33,867 nt of DNA from Candidatus Saccharimonadota bacterium (GTDB lineage Bacteria > Patescibacteriota > Saccharimonadia > Saccharimonadales > UBA4665), in NCBI GenBank assembly GCA_027365445.1, contig DAHXNJ010000064.1, positions 1-33,867 of the forward strand, given 5' to 3'. The first letter of the stretch is position 1. Every line of letters begins with the position of its first letter. The translations under genes and the position numbers were made by a program. This document shows, in pieces, positions 12,660 to 32,418 of this stretch. The notes under the pieces were generated by a model that had not been told where the DNA came from, did no database searches, and saw only the letters and a list, made by a program, of their open reading frames with translations.

Positions 12660-12863
12660 ATGGGAAGTATATTAAATCGTAGTTTTGTAAGCATGGATCC
12701 AGATACCAGAAGCTTTTATGCTAGCATTGGAGGTCATAAGAGTGGTGGCAATTTTGCGAAAGATCATGCTCGAGCGAGTGCTGCTGGTAGGATGGGAGCC
12801 GCCAATCAACCGCTTAGTGCTAAAAAGCGCGGCGGACTTAATAGTCATAGAAATAGAGGTTAG
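12660..12863 (+). CDS. KGG-motif/Con-10-like general stress small protein
   Basis: 67 aa; repeated GG-K/N-FA-x-D-x-x-x-A pattern (HKSGGNFAKDHARASAAGRMGA); SD GAAGGGAG. Confidence 0.7.
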   Translation: MGSILNRSFVSMDPDTRSFYASIGGHKSGGNFAKDHARASAAGRMGAANQPLSAKKRGGLNSHRNRG

Positions 12864-12872
12864 AAACTAATT

Positions 12873-13025
12873 ATGGGAAAACATGGATCTAGAACGAGTC
12901 AAGAAGTTGAAGAGACAATGCATGAGTATAAGTATCAAGGAAAATTTAAAAATAGGGCGCAAGCAATCGCTGTTGGTTTAAGTAAAGCAAGAAGAACTGG
13001 CGATAAAGTCCCTAAAGAAAGATGA
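12873..13025 (+). CDS. 50-aa small basic protein, DUF6496-like (below ORF-track cutoff)
   Basis: Own translation: MGKHGSRTSQEVEETMHEYKYQGKFKNRAQAIAVGLSKARRTGDKVPKER*; MHEYK...RAQAIAVGLSKAR pattern; AGAGG upstream. Confidence 0.75.
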   Translation: MGKHGSRTSQEVEETMHEYKYQGKFKNRAQAIAVGLSKARRTGDKVPKER

Positions 13026-13035
13026 GGTAAATTTT

Positions 13036-13299
13036 ATGATTTTAATACTATGGTTAATTATAGGTGCAATAGTTGGTTGGTTAGGTGCGAGGATTGCGGG
13101 ACGTCATGAAGGGTTAATTGCAAGCATAATTATTGGCATAGTTGGTGCATTCATTGGAAGCTTTATAGGTCGAGCTTTAGGCAGTGGAGGCGTAAGCTAC
13201 CTAACGTTTACTTGGGCTGGATTCCTTTGGTCATTAATTGGTGCCATCGTTTTGTCTGCCATTTTGAATATGTTCAATAGAAGGAGGAGTCATGTTTAA
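13036..13299 (+). CDS. GlsB/YeaQ/YmgE family stress-response membrane protein
   Basis: LWLIIGAIVGWLGARIAG...IIIGIVGAFIGSFI...TWAGFLWSLIGAIVLSAI three-helix pattern. Confidence 0.9.
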   Translation: MILILWLIIGAIVGWLGARIAGRHEGLIASIIIGIVGAFIGSFIGRALGSGGVSYLTFTWAGFLWSLIGAIVLSAILNMFNRRRSHV

Positions 13300-13450: not shown

Positions 13451-13489
13451 AAAAAGCGCTTTCCTGATAAAAAAGGAGGTGCTTTTTTA
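13451..13489. terminator. Intrinsic terminator between the small-protein operon (+) and dinB (-)
   Basis: AAAAAGCGCTTTCCT-loop-AGGAGGTGCTTTTTT stem flanked by A/T tracts; located between convergent genes. Confidence 0.8.
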
Positions 13490-14728
13490 GTTAGTGTCTA
13501 CGCTACCAAACGCTACTCGCTTGATTATGATGTCTTGCATGTTGGCCATCAAAGCTGGAATTAAGGTAAACTCACCGTAATGGTCATTAATGCTATCGGC
13601 AGCGAAAGCTAATGAACGTGAGTCAAGTCTAGTGTCATCAAATAATCCTAATTGCATAGGTGTGGTTGAGTTTAAGTTAAAGACAGTTACGGCTATGTTG
13701 GTAACGCGACTCGTTAACTGGGATTGAAGTAATAGCCTTTGTGATTGACTAAATATGTCTTGGGTAGAATAGATAGCAGACTTAAGTTGCTGTCTCTTAG
13801 ACCAGTAGTCTCGGTTTTCAAATCCCATCCAAAGTTGTATTCCTCGGGCTTCATAACCTTGGGATCGTAAGCGTCGACCGGCCTTTTCAGATAACTTCAT
13901 TAGTAGTCTAGCTAACTCTTGTTTATTAGCAGTTTTTTGGCCTAAAGCGTATTGTTGACTAAAGCTTTTGCGATCAAAATTTACTGAATCGATCTCATGA
14001 CCCCTTAATCTTAGGTACCAATAGAATCCGACTATGCTATGGAATACTTCATTTTTTAGTTTCCATAGTGGTGCATCTAGAAACTGCAAAGGACTATATA
14101 TTCCAGCTAAGTTTAATCTAGCGGTGTATCTGTGGTTAATTCCTGGTAGGTCCATAAGTTCTAGGTGGCTATATATCTCTCTTAGGTTATCGGCAGTGAT
14201 TTTATCCATTCCGTTGGGCTTGTTAAGTCCGGCTGCTAATTTGGCTAGGAATCGATTAGGTGCTATGCCTATATTGACGGTTATATATTCACCAAGCTCA
14301 CGTTTTATATCTTCTTTAATACGTTGGCCTATTGTTTCTAATGGTAAGCCTTTTTGGACGGCCGTTGAGCCGCTAAAATTAATAACAAATTCATCAACGC
14401 TTTTAGGAGTTATATTGTCGGTATAGTTAAGTAAGACTTTCTTAAAACGACGGTGAGCATCAAAGTATTTGTCTGGATCGGGCGTCATAATAATAATGTC
14501 AGGACAAATTAGCTTAGCTTCTCGTACATTGACGCCAACTTTAATACCTAGTGCTTTAGCTTCATAGCTGGCAGCCAATATTATGCCTTTGGGTGTATCG
14601 TAGGCCGCTACGGCTACCGGCTTGTATCTAATGAGCGGGTTGGCCTGTTGTTCAATCATGGCAAAACAAGAATTTAAATCAACGTGCATTATTAAAGGCT
14701 GACGATAGCTTAGATCTAGATCTATCAT
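13487..14728 (-). CDS. Y-family DNA polymerase (DinB/UmuC type)
   Basis: HVDLNSCFAMIEQQANP, KPVAVAAYDTPKGIILAASYEAKALGI, SVDEFVINF, GIAPNRFLAKLAAGLNKPNGM; SD AAAAGGAG. Confidence 0.93.
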   Translation of the reverse strand: MIDLDLSYRQPLIMHVDLNSCFAMIEQQANPLIRYKPVAVAAYDTPKGIILAASYEAKALGIKVGVNVREAKLICPDIIIMTPDPDKYFDAHRRFKKVLLNYTDNITPKSVDEFVINFSGSTAVQKGLPLETIGQRIKEDIKRELGEYITVNIGIAPNRFLAKLAAGLNKPNGMDKITADNLREIYSHLELMDLPGINHRYTARLNLAGIYSPLQFLDAPLWKLKNEVFHSIVGFYWYLRLRGHEIDSVNFDRKSFSQQYALGQKTANKQELARLLMKLSEKAGRRLRSQGYEARGIQLWMGFENRDYWSKRQQLKSAIYSTQDIFSQSQRLLLQSQLTSRVTNIAVTVFNLNSTTPMQLGLFDDTRLDSRSLAFAADSINDHYGEFTLIPALMANMQDIIIKRVAFGSVDTN

Positions 14729-14755: not shown

Positions 14756-15022
14756 CTAAGATACTAAACCATCACTTATGGCTTCTAATCTCCAGTGTAA
14801 GTTGGATGTATTGAGATCTAATTTGAACCAAAGACTCTCTTTGTCGTCTACTAACTCGAAAACGTGATGAAGAGTGGTGCCTTGCTTGATTGTGTGATGG
14901 TAACCTATTTTACCTACGTTATAATCTTTATTTTGCCAGTGGATAAGATGGGGTAATGCTATTCGCTTAGTGGCACTATAATACATAACCACACTTACCT
15001 CTTCATTAATTTGTTCACGCAT
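14756..15022 (-). CDS. 88-aa protein upstream of dinB; probable co-transcribed partner
   Basis: MREQINEEVSVVMYYSATKRIALPHLIHWQNKDYNVGKIGYHHTIKQGTTLHHVFELVDD...; same strand, 27-nt gap to dinB; GAGGG upstream. Confidence 0.65.
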   Translation of the reverse strand: MREQINEEVSVVMYYSATKRIALPHLIHWQNKDYNVGKIGYHHTIKQGTTLHHVFELVDDKESLWFKLDLNTSNLHWRLEAISDGLVS

Positions 15023-15101
15023 AATAAATTACTATTCCCTCGCCTGTTAAGGTTAAATGTTTATAAAATTATCTAAAGTGTTCTTAAAAGCAATATATTG
15101 T

Positions 15102-15191
15102 GACCGGATAGATGTTATGGTTAGGGTTTTTAGTTCCCTAGTTGATGTGATCCTTTTATACAGCGAAACGTTAAGCGGTATAAATCCGGTC
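15102..15191. ncRNA. Candidate structured RNA element 1 (three-way-junction-like)
   Basis: Closing helix GACCGGAT(15102-15109)/ATCCGGTC(15184-15191); hairpin TAGGG(15122-15126)/CCCTA(15136-15140); hairpin TTATAC-A-GC(15156-15164)/GC-G-GTATAA(15175-15183). By eye only. Confidence 0.4.
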
Positions 15192-15247
15192 GAATTAATC
15201 GTTTCCGCATAAAGGAGATTTGAAAATTGTAGTGTATATTAAGTCGA

Positions 15248-15330
15248 TATTCCTTTAAATTAAAGGATGGCTCCGAACTTAATTGAGTGTTATTAATGAA
15301 GGAATAAGCAGGGACCGTAGTATGCTTTCC
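15248..15330. ncRNA. Candidate structured RNA element 2 with competing helices
   Basis: TCCTTTA(15251-15257)/TAAAGGA(15261-15267) competes with TATTCCTT(15248-15255)/AAGGAATA(15299-15306), which competes with GGA-AT-AAGCA(15301-15310)/TGCTT-TCC(15323-15330). Confidence 0.35.
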
Positions 15331-15407
15331 TAGACTTTATTATACGCCCATAAATGATTGTTAAAAAATATACCGAATCAATTAAGAGGCTAGTTTAAAA
15401 TTTTATA

Positions 15408-16199
15408 ATGAATAAAAGAAGGAATAAGATAATGCGCAAAATAGAGCTTATATCGTTGTTTTTAATGTTAAGCGGTAGTCTCGTGTATTACGGAGTAAAT
15501 AATCCAGTTCAAAATAGTGATAATAAGACCAAGATTGTTAGTAGTAAAACGGTCTCGCCACCTAATATAAAGACTAAGACAGCGCCCAAGGCAACTAATG
15601 TTAGCCCAGTAATAATAAATTATGATCAGTATGGGTTTCAGCCTAATCAATTTAGGGTGCCGATAGGAACAACGATTGGTGTAAAGAATAATAGTAATAC
15701 AATTTTGGATTTCCAGGCGCTACCTAATCAACCGAATCAGCTCAAGGGATTAAATATAGGTAATATTAATTCTGGTCAAACTAAATACTTTAAGCTGACA
15801 AAAATAGGTAGTTGGCAGTTTCAGGCAAACTCCAATCCGGCAATAAGGGGGGATGTCAGTGCAACTCCTGCTGGTCAATCAAGTGTTAGATTAAGCCAGA
15901 ACGAGATGCCGGTATATAATCCAACAAATAAGACTTTACTGCTTAACTATACTAATTATGGATTTTTGCCTAATATGGCTAAAGTGCCGGTGGGTACAAA
16001 AGTCACTGTTCGTAATTCAACTACTCAAGGGGGTATGTATTTTATGGAAAGCTCCACTGACAGCATCCAGAATCCAAGCCTTAATCTAGGCTATATTGCC
16101 AAGGGCTCATCAGTTTCTTTTGTTCTTAATCAGCCGGGTACTTGGCATTATGTTAATACATGGGAAACGACGGATCGAGGACAAATTACCGCCTATTAG
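15408..16199 (+). CDS. Exported tandem cupredoxin-like domain protein
   Basis: N-terminal hydrophobic segment; two homologous blocks: INYDQYGFQPNQFRVPIGTTIGVKN... and LNYTNYGFLPNMAKVPVGTKVTVRN.... Confidence 0.7.
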   Translation: MNKRRNKIMRKIELISLFLMLSGSLVYYGVNNPVQNSDNKTKIVSSKTVSPPNIKTKTAPKATNVSPVIINYDQYGFQPNQFRVPIGTTIGVKNNSNTILDFQALPNQPNQLKGLNIGNINSGQTKYFKLTKIGSWQFQANSNPAIRGDVSATPAGQSSVRLSQNEMPVYNPTNKTLLLNYTNYGFLPNMAKVPVGTKVTVRNSTTQGGMYFMESSTDSIQNPSLNLGYIAKGSSVSFVLNQPGTWHYVNTWETTDRGQITAY

Positions 16200-16262
16200 G
16201 TTATAATCTAGGAAGTTATGTCTTTTAAGGTTATTCTAATCTATTAGTAGCAATATATTAAT

Positions 16263-17075
16263 ATGAGTAAATCTATTAAACAATTAAGTTTTGTGATTGT
16301 AGCCTTGATTTGCGGCTTAGCTAGTGGCATAGGAGGAGCCTATTGGTATCAATCGGAGCATCCTTATGGTGGTACGGTGATCGAAAGTCAACCGGCTCAA
16401 CCAAAAATAGTTGAAGCAACTAGTAAATCAGGCTTGACTATACCCGCACTCGTAAAACAATATTCGCCTGCTATAGTCGCGATTACTACTCAAAGTACAT
16501 CGTATAGTTTCTTTGGCGGACCACTTACTCAAGAAGGTGAAGGTACCGGCATGATATTAACAAGTAATGGCTATATATTGACTAATAATCATGTGGTTCC
16601 TCAGAATTCTCAGTCACTTACAGTTACTCTAACCAATCAGCAAACTTATAAAGGAACAGTCGTTGCAGCCGATCCAACAAACGATTTAGCGTTAGTAAAA
16701 ATTAATGCTAATGGTCTTAGTACTGTAAAATTGGGTAATTCGAACTCTATCGTAGCTGGTGATAAGGTTATTGCCATTGGCAATGCCCTTGGCCAGTTTC
16801 AAAATACGGTTACTAATGGCATAATTTCAGCTACGAATCGATCGATAACGGCGAGTGATAGTAGTAGTCCTTCGGGCAGCGAATCACTTAGTGGTTTATT
16901 TCAAACAGATGCCGCAATTAATCCTGGTAACTCCGGTGGTCCACTAATTACTACTAATAATGGCCTTGTTATAGGCATTAATACGGCAACTTCCTCGCAG
17001 GGACAGAATCTTGGCTTTTCGATTCCGATCAACATAGCTAAGACTTTCCTAACCCCATATATTAGTAATATTTAA
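16263..17075 (+). CDS. HtrA/DegP-like S1C serine protease, membrane-anchored, no PDZ domain
   Basis: N-terminal TM; ILTNNHVV (His), DPTNDLALVKI (Asp), INPGNSGGPLI (Ser); ORF ends soon after the protease fold. Confidence 0.92.
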   Translation: MSKSIKQLSFVIVALICGLASGIGGAYWYQSEHPYGGTVIESQPAQPKIVEATSKSGLTIPALVKQYSPAIVAITTQSTSYSFFGGPLTQEGEGTGMILTSNGYILTNNHVVPQNSQSLTVTLTNQQTYKGTVVAADPTNDLALVKINANGLSTVKLGNSNSIVAGDKVIAIGNALGQFQNTVTNGIISATNRSITASDSSSPSGSESLSGLFQTDAAINPGNSGGPLITTNNGLVIGINTATSSQGQNLGFSIPINIAKTFLTPYISNI

Positions 17076-17539: not shown

Positions 17540-17950
17540 ATGGAAGAAAACAATAATATGAAATGGTCAATAAGTAGAATAATTTCAGCTGTGGTACTAG
17601 TCTTAATCGTATTAGGGGCAATCGCCTATGGTATTTATAGTTTGACTCAATCCAGTAGTCCAAGTCATAATCAGACGGCGACCACTACTCACTTAACTGC
17701 TCCGTCTCCTAATACTAAATCTAAAAGTAGTTCTAAGAATAAAACCAATGCTGCAGCTAATAAACAACCAGTTGCTTCTGCTAATACTGCACCATCTACT
17801 ACTAATCAACCTTCATCGTCTACGGTTAGTGGATCTTCAAAGCAGTTAACAAACACCGGTCCTGGCGAAACTGCTTTATATGGTTTTATCCTAGCTAGTA
17901 TTATTGGCTATTCTATTCACTTCTTCTGGCGTAAAATTCAGAATTCATAA
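17540..17950 (+). CDS. Cell-envelope protein with LPXTG-like C-terminal sorting signal
   Basis: N-terminal TM, Ser/Thr/Asn-rich linker, then QLTNTGPGE + hydrophobic helix + WRKIQNS tail. Confidence 0.65.
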   Translation: MEENNNMKWSISRIISAVVLVLIVLGAIAYGIYSLTQSSSPSHNQTATTTHLTAPSPNTKSKSSSKNKTNAAANKQPVASANTAPSTTNQPSSSTVSGSSKQLTNTGPGETALYGFILASIIGYSIHFFWRKIQNS

Positions 17951-30772: not shown

Positions 30773-31057
30773 TCAAGACTTACTTCTTAAGCTAAGTACA
30801 TTTTTATCTAGTTCTTCCCTAGTTAAAGTGCATCCTGCGAGTCCAAGTAGATGATAGATTCTATCTTTGATGTCGGTAGAGATAATAATTTGTCTATCCA
30901 TTACTGAATCTATCGCCTCACCTCTTTTTATAGATTCGAATCCTATGTTCGCTAAACGATCTTCGGCCAATAAGATTTTCTTAAGGCTATAGCTACAGAT
31001 GGCTTGTTTATGCCAATTATCAATACAATATTCGCATCTTTTTATGCTATTTTCCAT
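30773..31057 (-). CDS. Cys-rich small protein, paralog A
   Basis: IKRCEYCI...ICSYS...LANIG...RIYHLLGLAGCTLTREELDKN; aligns with 33527-33778. Confidence 0.65.
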   Translation of the reverse strand: MENSIKRCEYCIDNWHKQAICSYSLKKILLAEDRLANIGFESIKRGEAIDSVMDRQIIISTDIKDRIYHLLGLAGCTLTREELDKNVLSLRSKS

Positions 31058-31134
31058 AATTAAATAACCTTAAAATTCTTAAATTATTTTAACAAAAAAT
31101 AAGTATGACCTTTTAATAAATTATTTATAGACAT

Positions 31135-32418
31135 TTAATTATTTATTTGCTCTTTATTTTTTTGCAGTAATTCAGGTGCAAATCTTTTACTTAATATAAA
31201 CCCGATAATGGCAACGATTAAACTGACGATGCCGCCAAAAATTATTGGTGACCTACCGCCCAATTGTGATGCCATGTAACCTAATATTGGTCCACCTATA
31301 GCCGTAGGGCCAGCTAGTAGTACTGTCTGTAGGGCTAAAACTCGTCCTCGCATATTAGCAACTGATTCGACTTGGGCTATTGTAGTTGTTGAGGTTGTAT
31401 ATAAGATGGATGACATGCCTAATAAGATGACTGCCGGTAAGGCAAAAGTAGAATTTGGTACGGCAGCTAGAAGTAACATTGTTATGCCTAAAGTTAAAGC
31501 CCCTAGGATCACGTGCATCATTTTAACATGTGAACGATGTGCCAGTAGAAGGCTGGCTATTACTGCCCCAAAACTATAGGTTGAGTAGATTATTGTATAC
31601 ATAACGCTTGAAGTGTGAAGACTTTGAGTAGTAAAGATAGGAAGTGTTATATTGAAGTTGTAAGACAATGTTCCTATCACTGCTAGCATAGCAAAGCTTA
31701 TCCATAGTAGGGGCACTTGGGTTACGTAGCGTAAACCGGCCTTTACTTCCCCTTTAACTTTAGCTTTAATTTTATGCCTATATAGTTCATTTGGCCGCAT
31801 CTTAAATAGACTGAGTAAAACAGCTATATATGAAATAGCATCAATTGCAAAACACCATCCATAACCTAGCGATGCGATTAATACGCCCGCTAAGGCAGGT
31901 CCAAATATCCTAGACACATTTAGTATGGTGCTATATAGGACGACGGCGTTAGGTATGTCCTCTTGAGGGACCATTTCACTAACGAAGGAACGTCTCAGTG
32001 GATTGTCGAATGCTAGAAAAAGTCCCCCTGCTAATGCAAGAATAAATAAGCCATCTATAGGTGGGCGTGGCATAAAAGCAAGTACTGCTAAACCTATCGA
32101 TTCGGCCATTTCTAAAGACTGAGTTATGTATAATAGATTGCGCTTATTTGCCCTATCGGCAACTGCACCAGCATAGGCGGAGAAAAAAAGTATTGGTCCA
32201 TATTGAAATACGGCCAATAAGCCCACCGCTAGGTCACTTTTTGTTACTTTCAAAACTAAAAGTGTAATAGCTATATTAGTAAGCCAGTTACCTGTATTGG
32301 ATATAAGTTGACCGCTAAAATAGAGCCTAAAATTCCGATGCTTAAGAGACAAGAAAGTTTTCTTAAAAGCTCGAGTTAATCTAGGTGATTCTAGGTCATT
32401 AGATAAGTCGGGATTCAA
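31135..32418 (-). CDS. MFS transporter (enterobactin-exporter-like)
   Basis: FRLYFSGQLISNTGNWLTNIAITLLVL; GAVADRANKRNLL; FDNPLRRSFVSEMV motifs; overlaps the upstream gene by 4 nt. Confidence 0.93.
   Translation of the reverse strand: MNPDLSNDLESPRLTRAFKKTFLSLKHRNFRLYFSGQLISNTGNWLTNIAITLLVLKVTKSDLAVGLLAVFQYGPILFFSAYAGAVADRANKRNLLYITQSLEMAESIGLAVLAFMPRPPIDGLFILALAGGLFLAFDNPLRRSFVSEMVPQEDIPNAVVLYSTILNVSRIFGPALAGVLIASLGYGWCFAIDAISYIAVLLSLFKMRPNELYRHKIKAKVKGEVKAGLRYVTQVPLLWISFAMLAVIGTLSYNFNITLPIFTTQSLHTSSVMYTIIYSTYSFGAVIASLLLAHRSHVKMMHVILGALTLGITMLLLAAVPNSTFALPAVILLGMSSILYTTSTTTIAQVESVANMRGRVLALQTVLLAGPTAIGGPILGYMASQLGGRSPIIFGGIVSLIVAIIGFILSKRFAPELLQKNKEQINN

Follow-up and report, generated by a model that had tools for sequence, protein, structure and literature searches.

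The window, by which we mean the whole 33,867-nucleotide stretch of DNA that was analysed, is one contig of an 834-kb genome that is 84% complete and whose relatives are Candidatus Saccharibacteria / Saccharimonadia MAGs. It contains a non-coding gap at positions 15023-15407. On one side of this gap is a minus-strand operon with a gene for an 88-aa protein (14756-15022) followed by dinB (13487-14728), which encodes a Y-family translesion DNA polymerase (PF00817, E 4e-35; PF11799, E 1.5e-15). On the other side is a plus-strand gene for a cupredoxin-like protein. The gap had been described as free of convincing open reading frames, and this is borne out; a 51-aa plus-strand frame at 15057-15212 matches no family. 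The plus-strand region at 15408-17075, which is divergent from the dinB leader, encodes a secreted protein with two cupredoxin-like segments, whose PF13473 score is just under the cut-off, and then a trypsin-like (HtrA-type) protease. Elsewhere on the plus strand, three small consecutive genes at 12660-13299 look like a stress cluster; they encode a glycine-rich, KGG-like protein of 67 aa, a basic one of 50 aa and a membrane protein of the Transgly_assoc family (PF04226). The 136-aa protein encoded at 17540-17950, also on the plus strand, has an N-terminal membrane segment and a sortase-substrate-like C-terminus (an LTNTG-hydrophobic-basic tail).

A preliminary description had placed an RNA resembling a three-way junction at 15102-15208. 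Both of its pairings are exactly as claimed: GACCGGAT (15102-15109) pairs with ATCCGGTC (15184-15191) at 8 of 8 positions, and GCGAAACGTTAA (15163-15174) forms a bulged pairing with TTAATCGTTTCCGC (15195-15208). Compared with dinucleotide shuffles, folding of 15102-15191 stands out on the minus strand (z -3.5; 0/200 shuffles) and less so on the plus strand (z -2.2; 6/200), and on the plus strand the full 15102-15208 segment is unremarkable (z -1.5). No clear DNA-level relative of this segment was found when the gap was compared by blastn with 100 related genomes. The only conserved part of the gap is instead at about 15298-15348, for which many of these genomes have a strong match. The segment is not supported as a unit in itself: the leader to which it belongs spans 15023-15331, and the most conserved piece, a hairpin that we call H1 (15300-15331), is outside the region first delimited. 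In summary, the original observation was real, but the element had to be assigned to the other strand and its limits and nesting revised.

The corrected element is the whole 5' leader, about 309 nt on the minus strand, of the operon formed by the 88-aa gene and dinB. Every close relative examined has the same arrangement, consisting of a -10 box, H1, a leader of 200-380 nt and the start codon of the 88-aa gene. On the minus strand, the conserved block reads TATAAT, 7 nt, then AGGAAAGCAUACUACGGUCCCUGCUUAUUCCU. H1 is a 32-nt 5'-terminal hairpin (AGG-A-AAGCA-U-AC-UACG-GU-CCC-UGCUU-..-CCU in the window) that is built from an AGG/CCU outer stem, an inner one of AAGCA/UGCUU, an asymmetric internal loop and, above it, two further pairs capped by a UNCG tetraloop. 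In the internal loop, which we denote Y/CMC and which is invariant, a single pyrimidine faces CCC or CAC. A covariance model built from 15 sequences matches the window copy, the only one in its genome, with E 5.7e-11. The model also has matches in 44 of 93 genomes of the family (E <= 0.3) and in 72 of 391 genomes of the order (E <= 0.02), mostly with a single copy per genome. In several hundred genomes outside the order there were 4 weak matches (E <= 0.01), which is at chance level, and these are in unrelated contexts.

Covariation supports H1 as a structure. Among 62 aligned copies, 8 of the 10 pairs have double changes, the number of double-change cells is 117 versus 28 after shuffling, and the covariation score is 0.559 versus 0.171, a value reached in none of 500 shuffles; a point against the case is that alignment A8 was fitted to the structure of the model. 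When the partner is slid by 1-3 columns as a control, the score falls to 0.15 or less, and covariation is also present in the first set of 15 sequences. The pair above the internal loop, for example, is A-U in 44 copies, C-G in 10 and G-C in 7. The core stem accepts G.U pairs (30 cells at pairs 2-30, 6-25, 7-24 and 8-23, versus 5 non-pairs), which fits an RNA of the minus strand. Bases A9, C12, G16, G17, C19, C21 and U22 are invariant, and the apical loop is enlarged in some copies (L024, L029, L086-L089, L104). It is thus shown computationally that H1 is an RNA hairpin under selection. At five loci (L027, L030, L032, L033, L034), a different hairpin follows the -10 box at the position of H1 (AAGC..GUAAGA..UCUUUCUUAC.AAGCUU); it is perhaps a diverged or replaced H1.

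The remainder of the leader is best understood in relatives whose leaders are compact, mostly 100-210 nt. In 35 leaders, the strand that follows H1 pairs with the Shine-Dalgarno/AUG region better than permuted combinations do (mean duplex energy -9.3 for the leader's own region versus -7.0 +- 0.4; 0/5000 permutations as good). Two separate strands of this kind were found in 25 of these leaders, where 0/10000 and 109/10000 permutations, respectively, are as good; the second, which accounts for the value of 109/10000, is between hairpin H2 and the pseudoknot in a subset of leaders. The pseudoknot itself joins an NNNCGG sequence in the H2 loop with CCGNNN 36-46 nt downstream, in variants such as UAAGCGG/CCGCUUA, UGACGG/CCGUCA, CAACGG/CCGUUG and GAGCGG/CCGCUC. 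Its flanks covary (83 of 99 flank cells are paired versus 67.5 +- 2.8 on permutation, 0/10000), in a test whose anchors were picked by rule and are in some cases misplaced. After the pseudoknot, a terminator-like hairpin, H3, with a U tract is enriched in 25 compact leaders (mean score 6.7 versus 2.6 shuffled). All of these parts are present in the leader of locus L168. Tests of homologous leaders for covariation were thus positive for both H1 (62 homologues) and the pseudoknot (compact relatives). However, short leaders of family f35 retain H1 and the start-site pairing and have no pseudoknot, so the pseudoknot is not essential everywhere.

These relatives give a different meaning to the two pairings in the window. 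The presumed alternative pairing corresponds to H2, whose 5' arm GCGGAAACGAUUAA (15195-15208, extendable to 15216 as UCCUUUAU) pairs with the 3' arm UUAACGUUUCGC (15163-15174, extendable to 15151), and an equivalent hairpin with a pairing loop is present in relatives. On its own, H2 of the window has moderate stability (-7.3 kcal/mol). The presumed closing helix corresponds to the pseudoknot, with the 5' strand GACCGGAU in the H2 loop (15184-15191) and the 3' strand AUCCGGUC (15102-15109) at the positions of GAACGG and CCGUUC in relatives. There the two helices coexist, and are not mutually exclusive as alternatives would be. The suggestion of a pseudoknot or two-state switch therefore fares well, given that relatives have both a covarying pseudoknot and strands that pair with the ribosome-binding site. 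Likewise, a structured RNA element is upheld, while a simple three-way junction as its conserved fold is not. The minimum-energy nested fold of the window's leader is in fact the multibranch fold first described, but a program restricted to nested structures is blind to the pseudoknotted alternative.

In a blind search for H-type pseudoknots in the minus-strand leader, the best candidate was GACCGGAU/AUCCGGUC with its flanking stem, and 6/500 shuffles were as good; on the plus strand the corresponding fraction was 38/300. When each leader of the genus was searched in this way, about one third, including the window's, beat at least 24 of 25 shuffles. Several leaders of the genus, read by eye with no alignment, have the layout of the window in differing sequences. 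One such reading is that of L028, which has the same layout in another sequence, CCUUA-AUUAGGUCA-UAAGG...UGACCUAAU. Between H2 and the 3' strand of the pseudoknot, sequence and folding predict a small hairpin (CUAGGG-aacuaaaa-CCCUAA, 15121-15141, minus strand). Directly after the pseudoknot, where compact relatives have the terminator-like H3, there is a weak hairpin, CAAUAUAUUG with CUUUU (15086-15100, minus strand), which is a putative counterpart of H3. The ribosome-binding region of the 88-aa gene, as judged from its sequence, is GGCGAGGGAAUAG (15032-15044, minus strand). Sequestration of the Shine-Dalgarno sequence is not significant in the window's genus, where 3011/5000 permutations are as good. 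Because the sequestering and terminator parts are divergent in this genus, we claim only H1, H2 and the pseudoknot helix there.

The main rival explanation is that the leader is a small-molecule riboswitch, in which H1 and the pseudoknot together would bind a metabolite or ion as the aptamer, with the Shine-Dalgarno/terminator part as the expression platform. An H-type pseudoknot that abuts a terminator-like hairpin and strands that pair with the Shine-Dalgarno sequence is a typical expression-platform layout, and H1 has invariant unpaired bases. In riboswitches of the preQ1-I type, for example, the loop of a hairpin pairs with sequence immediately 3' of that hairpin, beside a terminator or Shine-Dalgarno sequence, and the present leader's pseudoknot is similarly placed. 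However, the present leader is much larger than a preQ1-I riboswitch, has H1 as a separate domain, conserves another sequence, belongs to DNA-repair operons and has no match in Rfam. Moreover, few bases look conserved beyond H1 and the CGG/CCG core, the f35 leaders lose the pseudoknot while keeping H1, and the downstream genes are repair genes and small uncharacterised ones as opposed to metabolic or transport genes. We therefore consider a riboswitch of this kind unlikely.

Neither library searches nor the literature point to a described RNA. No signature of tmRNA, RNase P, SRP, 6S or hammerhead RNA had been recognised in it at the outset, and the Rfam covariance models give no family for the gap. 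With Rfam 15, no family in the window is above the gathering threshold except one tRNA, and a permissive scan of the gap gave a single chance match (E 4) and, in twelve relatives, nothing relevant. A search for tmRNA and tRNA-like RNAs (ARAGORN, Rfam) found only tRNA-Ser at 1646-1734. In open-licence papers, we found no report of a leader RNA or riboswitch in front of dinB or umuDC operons, nor of one in Saccharibacteria. The element looks like an undescribed RNA switch that controls error-prone polymerase genes, its folded leader being conserved within a single order of tiny parasitic bacteria.

A predicted -10 box of the operon promoter, TATAAT at 15339-15344 on the minus strand, ends 7 nt before H1, and the transcript is predicted to start at or near 15331 (minus strand). 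Among 65 loci, 35 have a hexamer resembling TATAAT whose end is 5-9 nt before H1, most often 7, and none has such a hexamer at the control spacings of 15-19 or 22-26 nt. The computation therefore shows H1 at the predicted transcript start in about half of loci. Several lineages among the rest probably have their promoter 70-100 nt upstream of H1, behind a further hairpin. Since transcription seems to begin at that distance in some members of the family and order, H1 is not universally at +1. A second leader group (L081-L088, L155, L160, L169) has an extra 5' element after an upstream -10 box, either UAGCCAUGU..GGGCU or AUGURAGU..ACUYAC, as well as CAGRCUUUAU or CAGACUUAU ahead of H1, and several of its members have a start-stop (AUGUGA/AUGUAA). 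At L035 / L046 (G038:C2, ~30900-31950), about 770 nt separate H1 from the 88-aa gene downstream, and this interval contains an SRAP/HMCES-like gene on the opposite strand, so that the dinB leader would be antisense to that gene.

It might be supposed from the frequent placement at the predicted very 5' end, and from the extra-stable UNCG loop, that H1 is only a stabiliser or processing element that shields the operon mRNA from decay and senses no signal. However, such an element would need neither an invariant Y/CMC internal loop nor restriction to a single operon type at about one copy per genome, and in other lineages H1 is internal. This explanation is accordingly improbable.

H1 points toward, and nearly always directly precedes, a gene of the 88-aa family, whose homologues (81-106 aa) come after H1 across the order. 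The family member is usually followed by dinB, or by genes for a UmuD-like protein and UmuC (L068-L075, L106, L110). At five loci (L095, L101, L108, L112, L115), no polymerase gene is behind the family member in the stretch examined. There are two exceptions to the rule. At L113, H1 is before a 51-aa gene, homologues of which carry the same leader (L168) or directly precede a gene of the 88-aa family (L169). At L093, H1 is before an unrelated 58-aa open reading frame that has no relatives in 60 genomes; in the genome of L093, another copy of H1 precedes an 88-aa gene (L154). Three loci that combine H1 with the 88-aa family occur in one genome (L103, L105, L164). At L095 (G071:C19:11221-11289), two tandem copies of H1, 5 nt apart, precede the 85-aa family member, and at L056 (= L017) a 90-aa paralogue of the family is between the leader and the 88-aa gene. 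Because the whole family is too divergent, the 88-aa loci of relatives were searched with a profile of a closer subset.

This linkage bears on whether the RNA acts on a flanking gene. A stand-alone non-coding RNA had been envisaged. Such an RNA, with its own promoter and upstream of the 88-aa gene only by position, could account for the terminator-like hairpins ahead of the coding region in compact leaders and for the length of the leaders (309 nt here, ~770 nt in L035). However, H1 is tied constantly to one gene family in one orientation, and leaders are complementary to the start region of their own gene, a match that is lost on permutation; we thus regard a stand-alone RNA as very unlikely. 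The proposal of a leader for either flanking gene holds for the minus-strand operon of the 88-aa gene and dinB and is not supported for the cupredoxin gene: conservation, the spacing of the -10 box, the G.U pairs and the gene linkage each point to the minus strand, so that a plus-strand cupredoxin leader is rejected.

A DNA operator, bound by a repressor or activator, is an extremely unlikely reading of the conserved block. In its favour, the block lies shortly after the -10 box and forms an interrupted inverted repeat, and LexA-type winged-helix proteins are encoded by most relatives. However, the arms of the block vary freely with pairing kept, its spacer is the most conserved part, G.U is tolerated and some copies are away from any detectable -10 box. 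Judged against a LexA operator, the arms of this block covary, G.U included, around an invariant spacer, and do not behave as half-sites. Short LexA-type open reading frames are found in most relatives, and longer ones in some. The one in the window's genome encodes 154 aa (L165, G000:C58:2191-2655, plus strand) and may be without the self-cleaving peptidase half.

The constant position and orientation of a covarying structure (H1, and the pseudoknot in compact relatives) 5' of particular genes lead us to conclude with high confidence that the element is a cis-acting leader. On the best reading, it controls the operon of the 88-aa gene and dinB here and umuDC-type operons in relatives. More specifically, we give a probability of roughly 60% to the hypothesis that it is a cis-regulatory leader RNA that gates translation and/or termination of translesion-polymerase operons in Saccharimonadales. 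Features of an expression platform are present in compact relatives, but in the genus of the window the pairing with the Shine-Dalgarno sequence does not reach significance. Judging from the compact leaders, the leader probably acts under the pseudoknot's control, by masking the ribosome-binding site, by terminating transcription or by both.

We suppose that the invariant Y/CMC internal loop of H1 would be recognised by a trans-acting factor, for which a protein is a likelier candidate than a metabolite. Binding would shift the pseudoknotted domain between two states: one in which the ribosome-binding site is hidden and/or transcription is terminated, and one in which the polymerase operon is expressed. 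The first candidate for such a factor is the 88-aa protein, since its gene follows H1 even in the absence of an adjoining polymerase gene; autoregulation by this protein through H1 is accordingly a tentative first hypothesis. However, the protein shows no recognised RNA-binding fold, which makes autoregulation only a guess from co-occurrence. An AlphaFold model has six beta strands (pLDDT 90), and PDB searches by sequence and fold gave no match (best fold match E 0.25). The 88-aa proteins have no significant family in Pfam or NCBIfam; one member of the family has a weak match to DUF6504 (E 0.076). Y-family polymerases have short uncharacterised partner proteins, such as DUF6504 and YolD-like proteins, encoded alongside. 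The 88-aa protein is similarly short, uncharacterised and encoded beside a Y-family polymerase, but differs from these partners in that its family lacks a significant match.

A parallel may be drawn with autoregulatory ribosomal-protein leaders, e.g., that of S6:S18 with its CCG bulge, in which a short hairpin, invariant in its asymmetric internal loop, is near the 5' end of the operon. H1 is likewise near the 5' end of an operon whose first gene would encode the likely binder. However, no ribosomal protein gene is in the operon, the Rfam models are unmatched and RNA binding is not known for the 88-aa protein.

The same translesion polymerases are regulated in LexA/SOS control of dinB and umuDC, but the element here is an RNA and not an operator, and the LexA-like frame of the window's genome is short for a full LexA, in a genome that is 84% complete. 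LexA may control the operon alongside the leader. A fuller scenario, to which we would give less than even odds, is that mutagenic polymerase operons in Saccharimonadales are gated by the leader, with H1 sensing a trans-acting factor (perhaps the 88-aa partner) and the pseudoknot switching both access to the ribosome-binding site and termination, so that LexA control would be in part replaced or overlaid; this would amount to a new class of translesion-synthesis control by RNA.

Regulation by structured leader RNAs is well established; judging by the open-licence papers searched, the dinB/umuDC context and the Saccharibacteria host appear to be new. The structure of the leader is specific enough for reporter and binding assays. 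If our reading is true, RNA would control a DNA-damage polymerase system in bacteria that have very small genomes and few known regulators, and there would be a lead to the function of an order-wide family of small uncharacterised proteins.
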